Shown: piece by piece, positions 7,634 through 13,640 of the stretch
Numbering within the stretch: position 1 is the stretch's first letter
Layout: each line of letters opens with the position of its first letter
Assembly (NCBI GenBank): GCA_027315255.1
Contig: DAHUYL010000202.1
Span: 1-42,799, forward strand
Source of the DNA: Solirubrobacterales bacterium
GTDB lineage: Bacteria > Actinomycetota > Thermoleophilia > Solirubrobacterales > Solirubrobacteraceae
DNA length: 42,799 nucleotides
Reading direction: 5' to 3'
The notes under the pieces: model-generated
Databases searched by the model: none
What the model saw: only the letters and a program-made list of their open reading frames with translations
Told to the model about the DNA's origin: nothing
Program-made: the position numbers and the translations under genes

Positions 7634-8410
7634 GTGATCATCAAGAAGAGCTCAGAGCAGATCGACCAGATGGCGGGCGCGGGTGCCGTCCTGGTCAAGA
7701 CGATGAACCTGCTCGCGGGCAAGGTCCGGCCCGGGGTCACGACGTTCGAGCTCGACCAGGCGGCCGAGCGGTTCATCCGCTCGCAGGGATGCGAGCCTGC
7801 CTTCAAGGGCTATCGCGGCTTCCCGGGCTCGATCTGCGCATCGCCCAACTCGATGATCGTGCACGGCATCCCGGGTCCATACCAGCTCGAGCGCGGCGAC
7901 ATCATCTCGATCGATATCGGCGTGGTCCGTGACGGCTGGGTCGCCGACGCGGCGCGAACGTTCCCCGTCGGTCCGATCACCCCGATCGCGCGCAAGCTGC
8001 TGACGGTCACCGAGGAATCGCTGCATCTGGCGGTCCAGCAGGTCCGGGTCGGCAACAGGCTCGGCGATGTCTCGCACGCGATCCAGCAGCACGTCGAGGC
8101 GGCCGGCTTCTCGATCGTCCGCAACCTCGTCGGCCACGGCGTCGGCCGCAGCATGCACGAGGAGCCGCAGATCCCCAACTACGGGAACCCGGGCACCGGC
8201 GTTCTGCTCGAGGAGGGGATGGTGCTCGCGGTCGAGCCGATGGTCAACGCCGGCCGTCACACGGTGCGGATGGGCGACGACCACTGGGCGATCTACTCGG
8301 AGGACGGCTCGCTGGCCGCCCACTTCGAGTTCACGATCGCCGTCACGGCCGACGGCCCGCGCATCCTCACGCCGTGGCACGAGGCCTCAGGCGGCCGCGC
8401 CGCCGCCTGA
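7634..8410 (+). CDS. map: Type I methionine aminopeptidase
   Basis: 258 residues from GTG 7634 (MIIKKSSEQIDQMAGAGAVL). The metal-binding set of the pita-bread fold is visible: Asp pair in IDIGVVRDGWVADAARTF, His in GHGVGRSMHEEPQIPNYG, Glu in MVLAVEPMVNAG and Glu in HFEFTIAVT. It removes the initiator methionine from nascent proteins. An AGAAG stretch lies upstream. In most actinobacteria infA and rpmJ follow immediately; here they do not. Confidence 0.97.
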   Translation: MIIKKSSEQIDQMAGAGAVLVKTMNLLAGKVRPGVTTFELDQAAERFIRSQGCEPAFKGYRGFPGSICASPNSMIVHGIPGPYQLERGDIISIDIGVVRDGWVADAARTFPVGPITPIARKLLTVTEESLHLAVQQVRVGNRLGDVSHAIQQHVEAAGFSIVRNLVGHGVGRSMHEEPQIPNYGNPGTGVLLEEGMVLAVEPMVNAGRHTVRMGDDHWAIYSEDGSLAAHFEFTIAVTADGPRILTPWHEASGGRAAA

Positions 8411-8552
8411 CTGCTGCGTCTCTTCACGGGCTCCGACCCGGCGTTTCTACGGTTCCAAGGCGCCGCGCGACCGTGCAAAGTCGAGAGCATGGCGAGCAGA
8501 GTCGAAGCCAAGGCGGCGGCCCGCGCGGCCCGGCTCGAGCGCGAGCGCCACG

Positions 8553-8557
8553 AGGCT
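8553..8557 (+). repeat. Left copy of 5-bp target-site duplication (AGGCT)
   Basis: AGGCT immediately precedes the left IS end. The same five bases follow the right end at 10836-10840, the expected footprint of staggered cutting by a DDE transposase. Confidence 0.85.
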
Positions 8558-8579
8558 CAGACCTCCGGTAGTGGGCCTT
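8558..8579 (+). repeat. Left terminal inverted repeat of the IS
   Basis: Starts CAGACCTCCGGTAGTGGG and ends CCTT. Compared with the reverse complement of the right end it differs at positions 12, 16 and 18 only. Confidence 0.88.
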
Positions 8580-8588
8580 GATGAGATG

Positions 8589-10736
8589 TCAAGGTTTTGA
8601 GCTGATTTGGTAGTGGATTGGGCGGTGATCGCCGGCGAGCCGGGGCGGGGTGTGGTTGATCTGCTCGATCAGGAGGTTGAGCGCGCGAGCGGTTCGGGGG
8701 GCGTGCGGCTCGTCGATCGTGACGACGATCTGGCTGGTTGTGTAGTCGATCCGGCCGGGCTGGTGCAGGAGATGGCGGGCGATCGTGCGGTACTCGTCTG
8801 AGTCGTTGAGATAGCAGTTCAGCGCGCGGGCGAGGTCGAGCTCTGCGTTGTAGGCCAGGAGCCGCAGCACGGTCTGAAGCGCGCGGCGGTTGATCTTCGG
8901 GGTCGCGCGCTGGGCGTCGGGGTCGACCTGGTTGGCGGGCAGCTTGGCGGGGATCGTCTTGAGCGCCTGCTTGGCGGCGGTGATGTCGTGCCGGGCTTGG
9001 TAGAGGTCGGCGGTCAGCATGCATGTCGTCTTGGCGGTGTCGGCGTTCATGGGGGCGGTGTGGTGCTTGCCGAGCTTCTGCTCGAGCTCTGAGGCGGTCC
9101 GCTCGCACGCTCTGAGGTGCGCGAGCGCCTGGGAGCGGGCGGGGTTGCGGACCAGGGCGATGTCCGGCGCGAGGTCCATCGTGTAATCGCAGAGCCAGTG
9201 CAGGCCGTGGTGGTCTTCGAGGTATTTGAACGTGTTCTCGATCCGCCAGCGGCACCGCAGCGTGTACGCCAACCGGGCCGCGGTGCTCCCGATGTCGGAG
9301 GTGAGGATCTGCAGGACGATCTGGTCGTGCTCGTAGACGGTCAGCTGCCGGCATTCGCCGTACCCGTCGATCTCGACGCGCTCGTCCGCGACGTGGATCG
9401 TGCGACGCGTGCCGTCGACCTGCACCCAGGATGTCCGCGGCCGAGCGGTCGTCTCAGCCAGCGGCGCGCGGCGGTAGGTCACCCAGTCGATCCCGCGGTC
9501 GCGCAGCGCGCAGAACGCCTTCGGGTAGGCGCCGCCGCGGTCGAACCCGACCGTGATCGGCCGGCCGGCGGAGATCTCGAGCAGCTGATCAAGGGGGTCG
9601 AGCATTCCCTCGGCGAGCCCTCGCGGCGGGCCGGTGTGAAAGCAGATCGCCCGCCAGCGCTCGTCGACGACGATCGTGTCGTGCCGACCCGGCTCGGCGT
9701 GACGGCGCCGGGTGTTCCACCCCTTGCCGACCGGTCGGGAGCCGGTGTAGGCGACGAAGTGCTCATCGACGAAGAACACCGACGGCGGGTCCTCATCAGC
9801 GTCGAGCATCCCTTTCGCGAGCGCGGCCTGCACCTGAAACGGATCGCACGCGTCCGCCAGCATCCCGAGCCGCGGGCGGAGCGTCCGCAGATGCGGGAAG
9901 CGCTCGACGCCGATCAGCAGCCCCGCGCCGGCGGGCTGCAGGTGCTTGGATCCCTCAAGCGAGGAGCACCCCAGTGCCGAGGCGAGCATCCCCGCGAGCG
10001 CGACCGCGGTCGTGTCATACGCGCGCGCGGGCCCGGACTCAAGCGCACAGAGCACGCGGCCCGCTCCGACCTTCTCCAGAAACGGGTGAAGCAGCATCGC
10101 CCCGCAGTACGCCGAGCGCCCGCCGCCCTCACCCAGCCGCGCCAGCTCCCCGGCCGCGTCCGCCTCTCGGGCCGGGCGGTCAGTCACGCTGTCGCCGTTT
10201 GCGGCCGCCTGCACCGACACGACCGCCACGCTCGCCTCGGCCGGCTCCGGCTCGGCATTTGAGGGGAACGTCTCGACCACGAGCCGCTCCGGCTCGATCC
10301 TCCGAGTCGCCAGAAGCCGCGACACCGTCGCCGCCGAGACTCCCAGCCGCCGTGCGATCTCGCTGCCGGCCATCCCCGCAGCTGAGAACGCGAACGCCCG
10401 CCCGCGAGCGGCCGCGTCGAGCTTCGCCGGACGCCCGCGGACCGGTAGGAGCCCCCACGCGCCGTCCTCGTCGGCCTGACGCCGCAGCCGGCTCACATGC
10501 TCGGGCCGGATCCCGAACAAGCGAGCGACCTCGACCCCGGCCACCCCCGCCCGCGTCAGCGACACGATCGCGAGGTTCCGCATCCCCCGATCGCCCCGCT
10601 CGTACATCGCCAACGCCCGCCCGCCGTGAGACACGACCACGTTCTCGCCGAGCGCCTCCAACCGCAGCTCCATCGCGGGCGGCATTCCCGGCAGCCGGCC
10701 CTCGTCCCCGTCGCTCTGCGCCCTCTCGATCGCCAC
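8589..10736 (-). CDS. IS transposase, DDE type, with two N-terminal helix-turn-helix motifs
   Basis: 715 residues from GTG (10736), ending at TGA 8589-8591. Two HTH-like stretches are visible: residues about 64-86 (GVAGVEVARLFGIRPEHVSR) and 121-145 (GMAGSEIARRLGVSAATVSR). The catalytic core fits a DDE fold: D324 in FFVDEHF, D399 in ITVGFDRGG, E500 in CRWRIENTFKYLEDHHGL, the last resembling the IS4/IS1634-type Y/W-x-R-x-E signature. A tail of about 200 residues follows. Its product would cut and join the 22-bp ends. ATG codons at about residues 18 and 22 are alternative starts. The reading frame is intact, so the element may still be active. Confidence 0.93.
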   Translation of the reverse strand: MAIERAQSDGDEGRLPGMPPAMELRLEALGENVVVSHGGRALAMYERGDRGMRNLAIVSLTRAGVAGVEVARLFGIRPEHVSRLRRQADEDGAWGLLPVRGRPAKLDAAARGRAFAFSAAGMAGSEIARRLGVSAATVSRLLATRRIEPERLVVETFPSNAEPEPAEASVAVVSVQAAANGDSVTDRPAREADAAGELARLGEGGGRSAYCGAMLLHPFLEKVGAGRVLCALESGPARAYDTTAVALAGMLASALGCSSLEGSKHLQPAGAGLLIGVERFPHLRTLRPRLGMLADACDPFQVQAALAKGMLDADEDPPSVFFVDEHFVAYTGSRPVGKGWNTRRRHAEPGRHDTIVVDERWRAICFHTGPPRGLAEGMLDPLDQLLEISAGRPITVGFDRGGAYPKAFCALRDRGIDWVTYRRAPLAETTARPRTSWVQVDGTRRTIHVADERVEIDGYGECRQLTVYEHDQIVLQILTSDIGSTAARLAYTLRCRWRIENTFKYLEDHHGLHWLCDYTMDLAPDIALVRNPARSQALAHLRACERTASELEQKLGKHHTAPMNADTAKTTCMLTADLYQARHDITAAKQALKTIPAKLPANQVDPDAQRATPKINRRALQTVLRLLAYNAELDLARALNCYLNDSDEYRTIARHLLHQPGRIDYTTSQIVVTIDEPHAPRTARALNLLIEQINHTPPRLAGDHRPIHYQISSKP

Positions 10737-10815
10737 CCCCTGAACCTATCAGACTAGCGATGATTATGCAATCTCTATGCCAACAAAAAATACCTGCTAA
10801 ACAAATGAAAACGAA
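10737..10815 (-). promoter_or_regulatory. AT-rich IS leader, probable transposase promoter region
   Basis: Markedly richer in A/T than its surroundings. On the minus strand a possible pair is TTGCAT and TAGGTT with a 17-base gap, placed just before the GTG; the match is weak. On the plus strand the same stretch supplies ATG codons in frame with the interrupted thioredoxin-fold gene. Confidence 0.4.
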
Positions 10816-11620
10816 GGTCTACTGCCGGAGGTCTGAGGCTGCCGCGGCCAGCCGCAGACGGCTCGTGATCCTGGGTGGTGTGGCGCTCGTCGTGATCGCG
10901 GTCGTCGCCGTCGTGATCGCGGTCAGCGGCTCGGGCGGCCCCAGCAGCCCGCCGGGCCAGAACAGCAGCGCGGCGAAGGCCGCTCAATCACGGGTCGACA
11001 GCCTGCTGGCGGGGATCCCGCAGCCGGGCAACAACGTGCTCGGCAGTGCGACCGCGCCCGTGACGATCACCGAGTACGCCGACCTCCAGTGCATCGCGTG
11101 CGCCTCGTTCGCGCTGCCGGCCGGTCAGCAGGCGCCGAGCGGCGCCCAGGGCTCGGGGATCGAGGACGAGCTGATCTCCAGGTACGTCCGCACGGGCGAG
11201 GTCCGGCTCGTCTACAAATCGCTCGAGACCGTGTCCGACCAGTCGCCGATCCCGAAGGCGTTCCAGTCGCAGCAGAGCGCCGCCTATGCCGCGGGGCTCC
11301 AGGGCAAGGGCTGGCACTACATCCTCATGTTCTACAACGAGCAGGGCGCCGAGGGCACCGGCTACGTGACCAACGCGTACCTCGAGGGACTAGCGCGCCA
11401 GATCCCCGGTCTCGACTACGGCAGGTGGCTGGCAGACCGCGCGAGCTCGACGCTGGCGTCGCAGGTCAGCTCCGAGAACGCCGCCGGGACCGCGCTCGAC
11501 GGCGGCCAGGCGGCGACGCCCACGATCGTGGTCAAGGGACCGAAGGGCACTGCCCAGCCGATCGTGGGCCTGCCGGCCAGCTTCAGCCAGCTCGAGTCGA
11601 AGATCAAGTCCGTCGAATAG
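10805..11620 (+). CDS. Membrane-anchored DsbA-family thioredoxin-fold protein, 5' end replaced by IS sequence
   Basis: Host sequence resumes at 10836. The frame is open back through the IS end to ATG 10805 (and ATGs at 10760 and 10766), giving a 271-residue hybrid: MKTKVYCRRSEAAAASRRR, a single membrane segment LVILGGVALVVIAVVAVVIA at about 20-40, a Gly/Ser/Pro linker, then the thioredoxin fold. The redox motif is C96-I-A-C99 in YADLQCIACASF, and a cis-Pro loop is present (ATPTIVV). Such proteins oxidise or isomerise thiols outside the membrane. The IS removed only the 23-residue charged N-terminus, so anchor and catalytic domain survive. Whether anything initiates here is unknown: I see no Shine-Dalgarno before ATG 10805. 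Without initiation it is simply the 3' half of a pseudogene. Confidence 0.82.
   Translation: MKTKVYCRRSEAAAASRRRLVILGGVALVVIAVVAVVIAVSGSGGPSSPPGQNSSAAKAAQSRVDSLLAGIPQPGNNVLGSATAPVTITEYADLQCIACASFALPAGQQAPSGAQGSGIEDELISRYVRTGEVRLVYKSLETVSDQSPIPKAFQSQQSAAYAAGLQGKGWHYILMFYNEQGAEGTGYVTNAYLEGLARQIPGLDYGRWLADRASSTLASQVSSENAAGTALDGGQAATPTIVVKGPKGTAQPIVGLPASFSQLESKIKSVE
10814..10835 (-). repeat. Right terminal inverted repeat of the IS
   Basis: Plus-strand sequence begins AAGGTCTACTGCC and ends GGAGGTCTG; its reverse complement matches the left end at 19 of 22 positions. It is followed directly by the AGGCT target copy. Confidence 0.88.
10836..10840 (+). repeat. Right copy of 5-bp target-site duplication (AGGCT)
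   Basis: Matches 8553-8557. Joining the flanks with one copy retained restores the host reading frame across the junction. Confidence 0.85.
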
Positions 11621-11664: not shown

Positions 11665-12612
11665 TCAGCGAGCGGCAGTGCCGGAGGGGCCGTGGGCCCG
11701 CTCTCCGTGGACGATCCGTCGGGCGAGATCGGCGATGAGCGAAAGCGCCTCGGCGTGCATCTGCCTCCACGTGACCCGCATGAGATCGATCCGAGCGGCG
11801 CTGAGCGCCCGGTCCTTGCGGCGGTCCCGCTCGAATGCGCTCCTCGTCGAGTGCCATTGAAAGCCGTCCACCTCGACCGCGACGTGCGCCGCCCGCCACA
11901 GGAAGTCAACCGTGAACTCGCCGACGCGGGCGTTGCATTCGGGAGGCGGGAGTTCGGCGGCGCGGATCAGCGCGAGCATCCGCTCCTCCGCAGCAGAGCG
12001 CGTGACCGTCGCCTCCCCGCGGCGGCGCAGGAGCTGCCGCAGCACCGCACGGCCCTGCCGCCCGGGCGATCGCTCGACGAGCTCGGTCACGGACTGGACC
12101 GTGACGATCCCGATCGCGAGCGCCTCGTCGAGCGCGCGCTCCAGCTCGCGGGGAGTCAGGACGGCGGCGAGGTCGAGCAGGGTCTGCTCGGGACACGTGA
12201 CCGGCAATCCGTCGACGATCGTTCCGCGGATCGCCAGCACGATCGGGTCGGCGCGGTGGACCCGGATTCCCGTGCGACGGCGCCCGCCCCTGTTGCGGCA
12301 GACCGTGACATCGACGACCCCGTCGTCGGGCGGCAGGGCCAATCGCCAGCGCCGCCCGGCGCTCAGATGCGAGAGCAGCGAGCCGAGCGGAACGGTGAGG
12401 AGGGCCTCGATCTCGGCGGACAGCGGGCCGGGCGTCCTGTGGCCGACTGCGTACACGCCCCGGTGCCGCCGGATCAGCGAGCCTCGGCGCAAGCGACCGG
12501 CGATCTGGCGGGGGCTCAATCCCGCGCTGATCAGCTGCCAGTGCGCGACGCGACCCTGCTGCGCGTCGCCGAGCTGCGAGATCCGTGCGTCGGGATGTCC
12601 CGAGACCGGCAT
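11665..12612 (-). CDS. AbiEi-type antitoxin-like N-terminus with DUF559 endonuclease-like domain
   Basis: 315 residues from ATG 12612; an open frame continues upstream to 12879 through a Pro/Gly/Asn-rich stretch that is probably not coding. The N-terminus (ISQLGDAQQGRVAHWQLISA, IAGRLRRGSLIRRHRGVYAV) looks like the winged-helix region of AbiEi-family antitoxins. The C-terminus (VGEFTVDFLWRAAHVAVEVD, then GFQWHSTRSAFERDRRKDRA) resembles DUF559, a Vsr/PD-(D/E)XK-like fold, with VDFLW and EVDG as candidate catalytic positions. No partner toxin gene is adjacent. It converges with the thioredoxin-fold gene, 44 bp apart. Function is not known; the family is common as single genes in Actinobacteria. 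Confidence 0.8.
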   Translation of the reverse strand: MPVSGHPDARISQLGDAQQGRVAHWQLISAGLSPRQIAGRLRRGSLIRRHRGVYAVGHRTPGPLSAEIEALLTVPLGSLLSHLSAGRRWRLALPPDDGVVDVTVCRNRGGRRRTGIRVHRADPIVLAIRGTIVDGLPVTCPEQTLLDLAAVLTPRELERALDEALAIGIVTVQSVTELVERSPGRQGRAVLRQLLRRRGEATVTRSAAEERMLALIRAAELPPPECNARVGEFTVDFLWRAAHVAVEVDGFQWHSTRSAFERDRRKDRALSAARIDLMRVTWRQMHAEALSLIADLARRIVHGERAHGPSGTAAR

Positions 12613-12765
12613 AACCTCGATCGCACCGATCACCGGCACCCACACTGTGCCCGAATGCGCTCTGCCGGGGCGCTGGTGCGCCAGGTCGCTCGGCCCGGGG
12701 GGTGCTGGTGCAGACGTGCGGTCATCGTTCCGGTGTATTGGAGGGCGGGCCTCGCGGTGGGTATC

Positions 12766-12801
12766 GGGGGCGTTGGGGCCGCCGGGGGCGTTGGGGCCGC
12801 T
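12766..12801 (+). repeat. 18-bp tandem repeat, two copies plus a degenerate third
   Basis: Copies at 12766-12783 and 12784-12801 differ only in the last base; a decayed copy continues to about 12812. In the minus frame upstream of the DUF559-like start it reads GPNAPG. Confidence 0.8.
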
Positions 12802-12985
12802 CGGGGCGTCGGGCAGGCGGCGCTGAGGTTGGAGAGGTGAGTTGGTCATGCCCTCAGACGCTGCCGCGTGTCGGACCACCCCCGGCGGTGCTCCGGACGA
12901 ATCGGCTCAAATCCGGCTCTAATTCGTCGCAGATCCATTGCTCCGCGTCGCGAACGGGGTGAAGGCGCCGGTGCGAGGGGAGCTT

Positions 12986-12993
12986 GCTACTAT
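12986..12993 (+). promoter_or_regulatory. Possible -10 box for the rpmJ-rpsM cluster
   Basis: TACTAT at 12988-12993 lies in an otherwise GC-rich gap about 130 bp before rpmJ. No convincing -35 box is visible at 16-18 bp, so this is a weak call. A promoter somewhere in this gap is expected, because the gap and an opposing gene separate rpmJ from the upstream ribosomal cluster. Confidence 0.3.
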
Positions 12994-13124
12994 CCGTCGA
13001 TGCGCCCGCAGCGCCCGCGTTGTGCTGCGCGTGCCATACCCATCCGTGGTAGCGGCGACCGCACCGGTCGCCAGAGCCGCGAATGCGGATCCACCGAGAC
13101 CAGCCAGGACGAGAGCGAAGCGAC

Positions 13125-13238
13125 GTGAAAGTACGACCGTCGGTCAAACCGATGTGCGAGAAGTGCAAGATCATCCGCCGCCACGGGCGGGTGCTCGTGA
13201 TCTGCTCCAATCCGCGGCACAAGCAGCGGCAGGGCTAG
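13125..13238 (+). CDS. rpmJ: 50S ribosomal protein L36
   Basis: 37 residues from GTG 13125: [20 protein letters not shown] then [17 protein letters not shown]. The zinc site is the classical CxxC...C...H arrangement, so this is the zinc-binding form. L36 is the smallest 50S protein and links 23S domains near the peptidyl-transferase region. It is far shorter than usual ORF cut-offs. It precedes rpsM by 18 bases and opens the alpha cluster here. Confidence 0.96.
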
Positions 13239-13256
13239 GAGCGGACCACCACCACC

Positions 13257-13640
13257 ATGGCACGGATCAGCGGGGTCAACATCCCTCTCAACAAGCGGGT
13301 CGAGATCGGCCTCACATACATCTACGGGATCGGGCGACCGACCTCGAACAAGCTGCTCGCGGAGATCGGGATCGAGCCCGACCGCAAGGTGCGCGACCTG
13401 ACCGAGGAAGAGGTCGTCAAGCTCCGCGACGCGATCGACGGCGCGCTCGTGGTCGAGGGCGACCTGCGCCGTGAGCGCTCGCAGAACATCAAGCGCCTGC
13501 AGGAGATCGGCTGCTATCGCGGCCTGCGGCACCGCCGCGGCCTGCCGGTCCGCGGACAGAACACGAAGACCAATGCGCGCACGCGCAAGGGTCCGAAGCG
13601 GATGCAGGTTGCAGGCAAGAAGAAGGCGGGCAAGAAGTGA
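13257..13640 (+). CDS. rpsM: 30S ribosomal protein S13
   Basis: 127 residues: [39 protein letters not shown], then [20 protein letters not shown] and the basic tail ending in GKKKAGKK. S13 sits in the 30S head, contacts P-site tRNA with its tail and bridges to L5. Length and motifs are ordinary. Start fixed by the canonical MARI N-terminus. Confidence 0.98.

Follow-up and report, generated by a model that had tools for sequence, protein, structure and literature searches.

A Transposase_29-group insertion sequence interrupts a DsbA-like gene located between map and rpmJ in a Solirubrobacterales genome

The stretch analysed here, a contig of 42,799 nucleotides from a Solirubrobacterales bacterium (DAHUYL010000202.1 of assembly GCA_027315255.1; hereafter the window), carries an insertion sequence (IS) within a gene for a membrane-anchored DsbA-like protein, located between map (7634-8410) and the ribosomal genes rpmJ (from about 13125) and rpsM (at 13257). 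We are almost certain that the IS inserted after codon 23 of the DsbA-like gene and produced a 5-bp AGGCT target duplication. The insertion is considered real, base-exact and of an ordinary kind, and it is probably young. From map to rpmJ the order is an ATG-initiated fragment at 8489, the 2278-bp IS, the remainder of a thioredoxin-fold gene up to 11620 and an opposite-strand gene at 11665-12879. The source genome is a 4.3 Mb draft in 231 contigs, 92% complete, and its host, an actinobacterium of the class Thermoleophilia, probably lives in soil.

The IS occupies positions 8558 to 10835, with the minus strand as its transposase strand. Its terminal inverted repeats map to 8558-8579 (plus strand, on the transposase C-terminal side) and 10814-10835 (minus strand); both ends start with CAGACCTCCGG when read inward, and 19 of the 22 terminal bases are alike. 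The two copies of AGGCT (8553-8557 and 10836-10840) are placed exactly at these symmetrical ends. Since a G is common to the IS end and the target, a 6-bp duplication, GAGGCT, starting at 8552 and with the IS ending at 10834, is equally possible and leaves the same empty site. Two random 5-mers from the window match with a frequency of 0.0024, and by itself the repeat therefore carries modest weight. When the flanks were joined by script, removing the IS and one AGGCT, a single open frame of 282 codons was obtained. The original prediction had proposed an IS between AGGCT copies, the deletion of which restores one frame, and both parts of that proposal were borne out.

The 5' piece of the interrupted gene (8489-8557, plus strand) comprises the ATG and first 23 codons, encodes a charged tail beginning with MASR and ends with the left AGGCT. 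The 3' piece (10841-11620, plus strand) encodes the rest of the tail, the membrane anchor and a thioredoxin-fold domain with a CIAC motif, followed by the stop codon. It matches the Pfam family Thioredoxin_4 with 43.2 bits (cut-off 23.2), and its matches to solved structures are weak (best E 0.013). DsbA-like proteins are characterized by a CXXC motif and a cis-Pro loop, and the frame contains CIAC and TPT at these features. The cut thus falls in the N-terminal tail and leaves the anchor and the CIAC domain intact; the tail is taken as cytosolic because positive charge precedes the anchor.

The rejoined junction was compared with 25 same-genus homologues (L004-L028), one of which (L028) has lost its N-terminus at a contig end. 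Of the remaining 24, 23 start with MASR and one with VASR; none has a gap at the rejoined junction, and none carries the insertion. Several observations weigh against this reconstruction. Twenty-two of the 24 homologues have a tail one residue longer than the rejoined one (which equals that of L026 and exceeds that of L016 by one residue), the L026 sequence shows a gap one column ahead of the junction, and the junction itself is in an Ala-rich stretch of poor conservation. The closest homologue found is 57% identical and no near-identical empty site was found among the sequences compared, so the pre-insertion sequence is deduced rather than read. The IS is single-copy in the assembly, where its sole other match is of 25 bases; a draft of 231 contigs could lack further copies, and polymorphism of the IS is conceivable. 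Finally, no sigma-70 consensus was detected near the IS or before rpmJ. The reading frame, the length and both flanks nevertheless argue together for the proposed junction.

Evidence from outside the window was provided by related elements. The closest relative with both ends visible is found in plasmid NZ_CP108048.1 of Streptomyces sp. NBC_00289. It has the same CAGACCTCCGG ends, with identical terminal 11 bases, a 5-bp duplication and a single large transposase with conserved D, D and E residues (735 aa in one copy), but the transposases are only ~41% identical and the duplicated target is GGTCC instead of AGGCT. One plasmid copy (76772-79112) has GGTCC on either side. Another ends at 104021 with GGTCC after it, and has three candidate left ends (101267, 101495 and 101723); GGTCC also precedes the second and third of these. 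Because GGTCC is common to both copies, they may not be independent events. The plasmid elements support the IS ends and the duplication length independently of the window and, together with the uninterrupted homologues, they favour the earlier claim of an insertion into a DsbA-like gene. In a genus-mate (G002), a transposase 65% identical to that of the window adjoins an end reading ...GGGGGTCTG; the other end lies beyond the contig. A search with the 14-base IS end in 61 genomes, allowing one mismatch, gave matches no more numerous than those of a reversed-pattern control. Upstream of one of the plasmid copies there are three IS-end-like sequences 228 bp apart (101267-101723 of NZ_CP108048.1; 2268-2724 of locus L105), an arrangement that looks like a tandem end duplication.

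The transposase gene (8589-10736, minus strand) has a GTG start and is one intact frame of 715 aa. The product matches Transposase_29 (PF21804) with 64.7 bits against a cut-off of 27, as well as DDE_Tnp_1 and, in its N-terminal part, helix-turn-helix models. An alignment with three relatives showed conservation of D324, D399 and E500, with D(74)D(100)E spacing. This lies within the D(60-110)D(100-150)E spacing given for the IS4 family in the part of PMC2266710 that describes it, where the motif Y(2)R(3)E(6)K and target duplications of 7-13 bp over the subgroups are also listed. The motif is incomplete in the window transposase, which keeps R496 and E500 and has L493 in place of Y and E507 in place of K, and the duplication is of 5 (or 6) bp. 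The same part of that source treats IS1634 and ISH3 as emerging families beside IS4. IS1634 elements have 5-6 bp duplications, AT-rich targets, lengths of 1500-2000 bp and C-----YT ends (PMC2266710). The element in the window resembles them in its short duplication and in the C and Y of its ends, but it is too long at 2278 bp, the eighth base is C and AGGCT is not AT-rich. ISH3 elements have CRGT ends and lengths of 1225-1500 bp (PMC2266710); the duplication length would fit, but the ends read CAGA and the length again differs. None of the NCBIfam IS family models scored above its curated cut-off (IS630, 33.8 bits against 100; IS4, 14.8 against 115). Since the motif and duplication do not agree with IS4, nor the length and ends with IS1634 or ISH3, the element was left as an IS4-superfamily-like member of Transposase_29; it is best explained as a DDE IS of this Pfam group with a distant relationship to the IS4 superfamily.

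Relatives of this transposase are rare. At E 1e-30, matches were found in two of 399 class genomes, the source genome and G002, and Transposase_29 was present in 10 of 396 phylum genomes including the source genome, both sets being samples of larger groups. At E 1e-5, one of 72,556 plasmid records and none of 50,697 phage records contained a relative. A scan of genome contigs gave a single relative, in a Solirubrobacteraceae metagenome-assembled genome. The transposase sequence matched none of the solved structures at E values up to 1, and its fold prediction was of low confidence (mean pLDDT 36).

The interrupted gene differs from most of the same-genus homologues fetched in its neighbourhood. 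A VKOR gene adjoins 18 of the 26 same-genus homologues fetched (L004-L028 and L082), a count in which some of the other eight are near contig ends and which covers part of the homologue matches. The source genome has an intact paralogue on another contig (C59), followed by a VKOR gene; the genome shows no other VKOR match, and none is found beside the interrupted copy. A tree of 30 rows places the C59 copy, with good support, in a cluster of five rows linked to VKOR, and the interrupted gene, with weak support, near copies most of which are unlinked. As most of the same-genus homologues fetched adjoin VKOR, and a VKOR-paired paralogue is intact elsewhere in the genome, the interrupted gene is most readily viewed as an orphan copy, paralogous to a VKOR-paired DsbA. 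It shares the anchor and the thioredoxin fold with CXXC with the VKOR-paired membrane-anchored DsbA-like oxidoreductases described in actinobacteria, and differs from them in that it has no VKOR neighbour, has ribosomal genes around it and carries an IS. No paper joining VKOR and DsbA with an insertion sequence in Actinobacteria was found in the literature search.

In the favoured explanation, a Transposase_29-group DDE element entered after codon 23, presumably by cut-and-paste transposition given its transposase type, and duplicated AGGCT. The interrupted copy would have been expendable because the VKOR-linked paralogue probably performs the main oxidative folding. The insertion severs the native start codon, and the native protein would therefore no longer be made from the locus; the left gene piece would encode about 30 residues. 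The sequence entails the loss of this native product but not of every product, although complete loss is judged the likelier outcome. The right end of the IS (10737-10835, 43% GC) holds in-frame ATGs at 10760, 10766 and 10805, and for this reason the sequence is compatible with either a dead or a surviving gene.

A surviving gene could be restarted from the ATG at 10805 (or 10760/10766), so that a short IS-encoded tail would replace the 23-residue one, with the anchor and CXXC kept, and transcription would come from read-through on the map side or outward from the IS. Of the three frames, that of the DsbA-like gene alone stays open through the right end of the IS, being free of stops as far back as 9554; the other two have stops, with one ATG between them. 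The 3' piece retains CXXC and all 260 codons free of internal stops, and the interrupted tail varies among homologues. On the other hand, such agreement of frame is expected by chance about one time in three, no clear Shine-Dalgarno sequence was seen ahead of the ATGs when the bases were read by eye, and no consensus promoter was found; promoter and terminator scans of 8400-10900 gave nothing. A restarted gene is thus tentatively considered, and is the less probable fate.

The same observations could reflect an old insertion, in which the IS and the gene have long been together and the intactness of the pieces comes from selection on a re-started gene instead of recency. The data do not date the event, since the sequences compared included no sister strain and the closest homologue found is the 57% identical one. 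A young insertion accounts more readily for the perfect repeat and the intact transposase, and its absence from the 24 homologues points the same way, which makes an old insertion improbable. The recent insertion put forward in the original prediction is therefore plausible, in view of the intact transposase, the perfect repeat and the gene pieces in frame, as an undated event. An assembly artefact joining unrelated pieces via the IS, conceivable in a draft of 231 contigs, is very improbable, as the exact repeat stands at symmetrical ends, the frame is restored, homologues span both pieces in one gene, and an IS that is single-copy in the assembly is a poor cause of misjoining.

The location of the DsbA-like gene between map and rpmJ is unusual. 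Of 61 genomes, 57 contained rpsM, and the comparison used 30 rpsM loci, that of the window among them; map and rpmJ were both visible in 27 of the 29 relatives' loci. In 26 of these 27, the gap between the two genes is 88-489 bp and contains no DsbA-like gene. The other (G015) has a gap of 1175 bp with a DsbA-like gene in the opposite direction (L011; G015:C1:3211466-3212254), and the gap in the source genome is about 4.7 kb. The location could be private to the source genome, or common with G015 after a rearrangement; the interrupted gene and the G015 copy are not sisters in the tree, but with weak support. The proposed placement inside the ribosomal superoperon thus holds by position, with the qualification that it is unusual among relatives and that the downstream ribosomal protein genes seem to be equipped with a conserved promoter-like box and a leader of their own. 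The literature search found no paper on an insertion sequence in the spc operon.

Located outside the IS, and also between map and rpmJ, is the gene at 11665-12879 (minus strand), which is antisense within the superoperon. Its matches to AbiEi-like and MTES_1575 (DUF559-like) families score below the Pfam cut-offs, and it has no match in the rpsM loci of the 29 relatives with their 1.5 kb flanks. A displacement of infA from the operon by the inserted DNA was considered and rejected: infA was found in 36 of 41 genomes and is on other contigs of the source genome, and none of the 30 rpsM loci, the window included, has an infA match. The source genome has two full-length infA matches and a partial one (G000:C125 and G000:C182), and none in positions 12880-13125 of the window.

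Upstream of rpmJ, on the plus strand, a promoter-like box, TGCTANNAT (12985-12993), precedes a structured leader (13001-13080). The box was found in all 10 aligned genomes, and the 80-nt leader could be aligned in 23 of 23 loci, namely that of the window and 22 others from the same genus among the 30 (L063 and L065-L070, five of other genera plus G021 and G003, were left out). In this alignment, from which part of the leader structure was itself derived, 95.4% of helix cells are paired, against 32-49% when the 3' partners were slid and 94.0% in column shuffles; six pairs changed on both sides, against 2.6 in shuffles (reached in 7 of 500). Covariation within the genus is therefore modest, given how well the shuffled columns pair. 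A covariance model of the 23 rows had matches at E 0.01 in 28 of 299 class genomes, one in each. Twenty-six are just upstream of rpmJ-rpsM, and 17 of these belong to other genera of the family, outside the model. The other two, in other families, have neither rpmJ nor rpsM nearby, and at least 20 same-family genomes gave no match. In the 28 matches, aligned by fitting to the model, 93.6% of cells are paired, compared with 81.7% for shuffled columns. Changes on both sides affect 10 of 17 pairs and 53 cells, where shuffling gave 16.7 cells and none of 500 shuffles came up to 53, in line with covariation across the family. No Rfam match to the leader was found at E up to 5, and promoter and terminator scans of 12700-13260 detected nothing. 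The part of PMC7247131 covering S4 leaders upstream of rpsM-rpsK-rpsD-rpoA-rplQ lists them for Clostridia and Fusobacteriales and names none for Thermoleophilia. No paper on a ribosomal protein leader with rpmJ in Actinobacteria was found. The leader is a candidate ribosomal protein leader, perhaps for S4 or S13, and the box and leader may drive the rpmJ-rpsM genes.

If they do, the downstream ribosomal genes would escape silencing because they start at their own conserved box and leader, which may explain their tolerance of 4.7 kb of inserted DNA. The element itself defines, for a rare transposase group, both the ends and the short target duplication. Should the gene be restarted, the locus would represent a natural tail swap, with a shortened, re-tailed membrane-bound DsbA-like protein made from an IS-encoded start codon. 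The locus shows in which of two DsbA-like paralogues a soil actinobacterium could tolerate an insertion, and the site points to a conserved rpmJ-rpsM start point that may keep essential genes on despite an upstream insertion.

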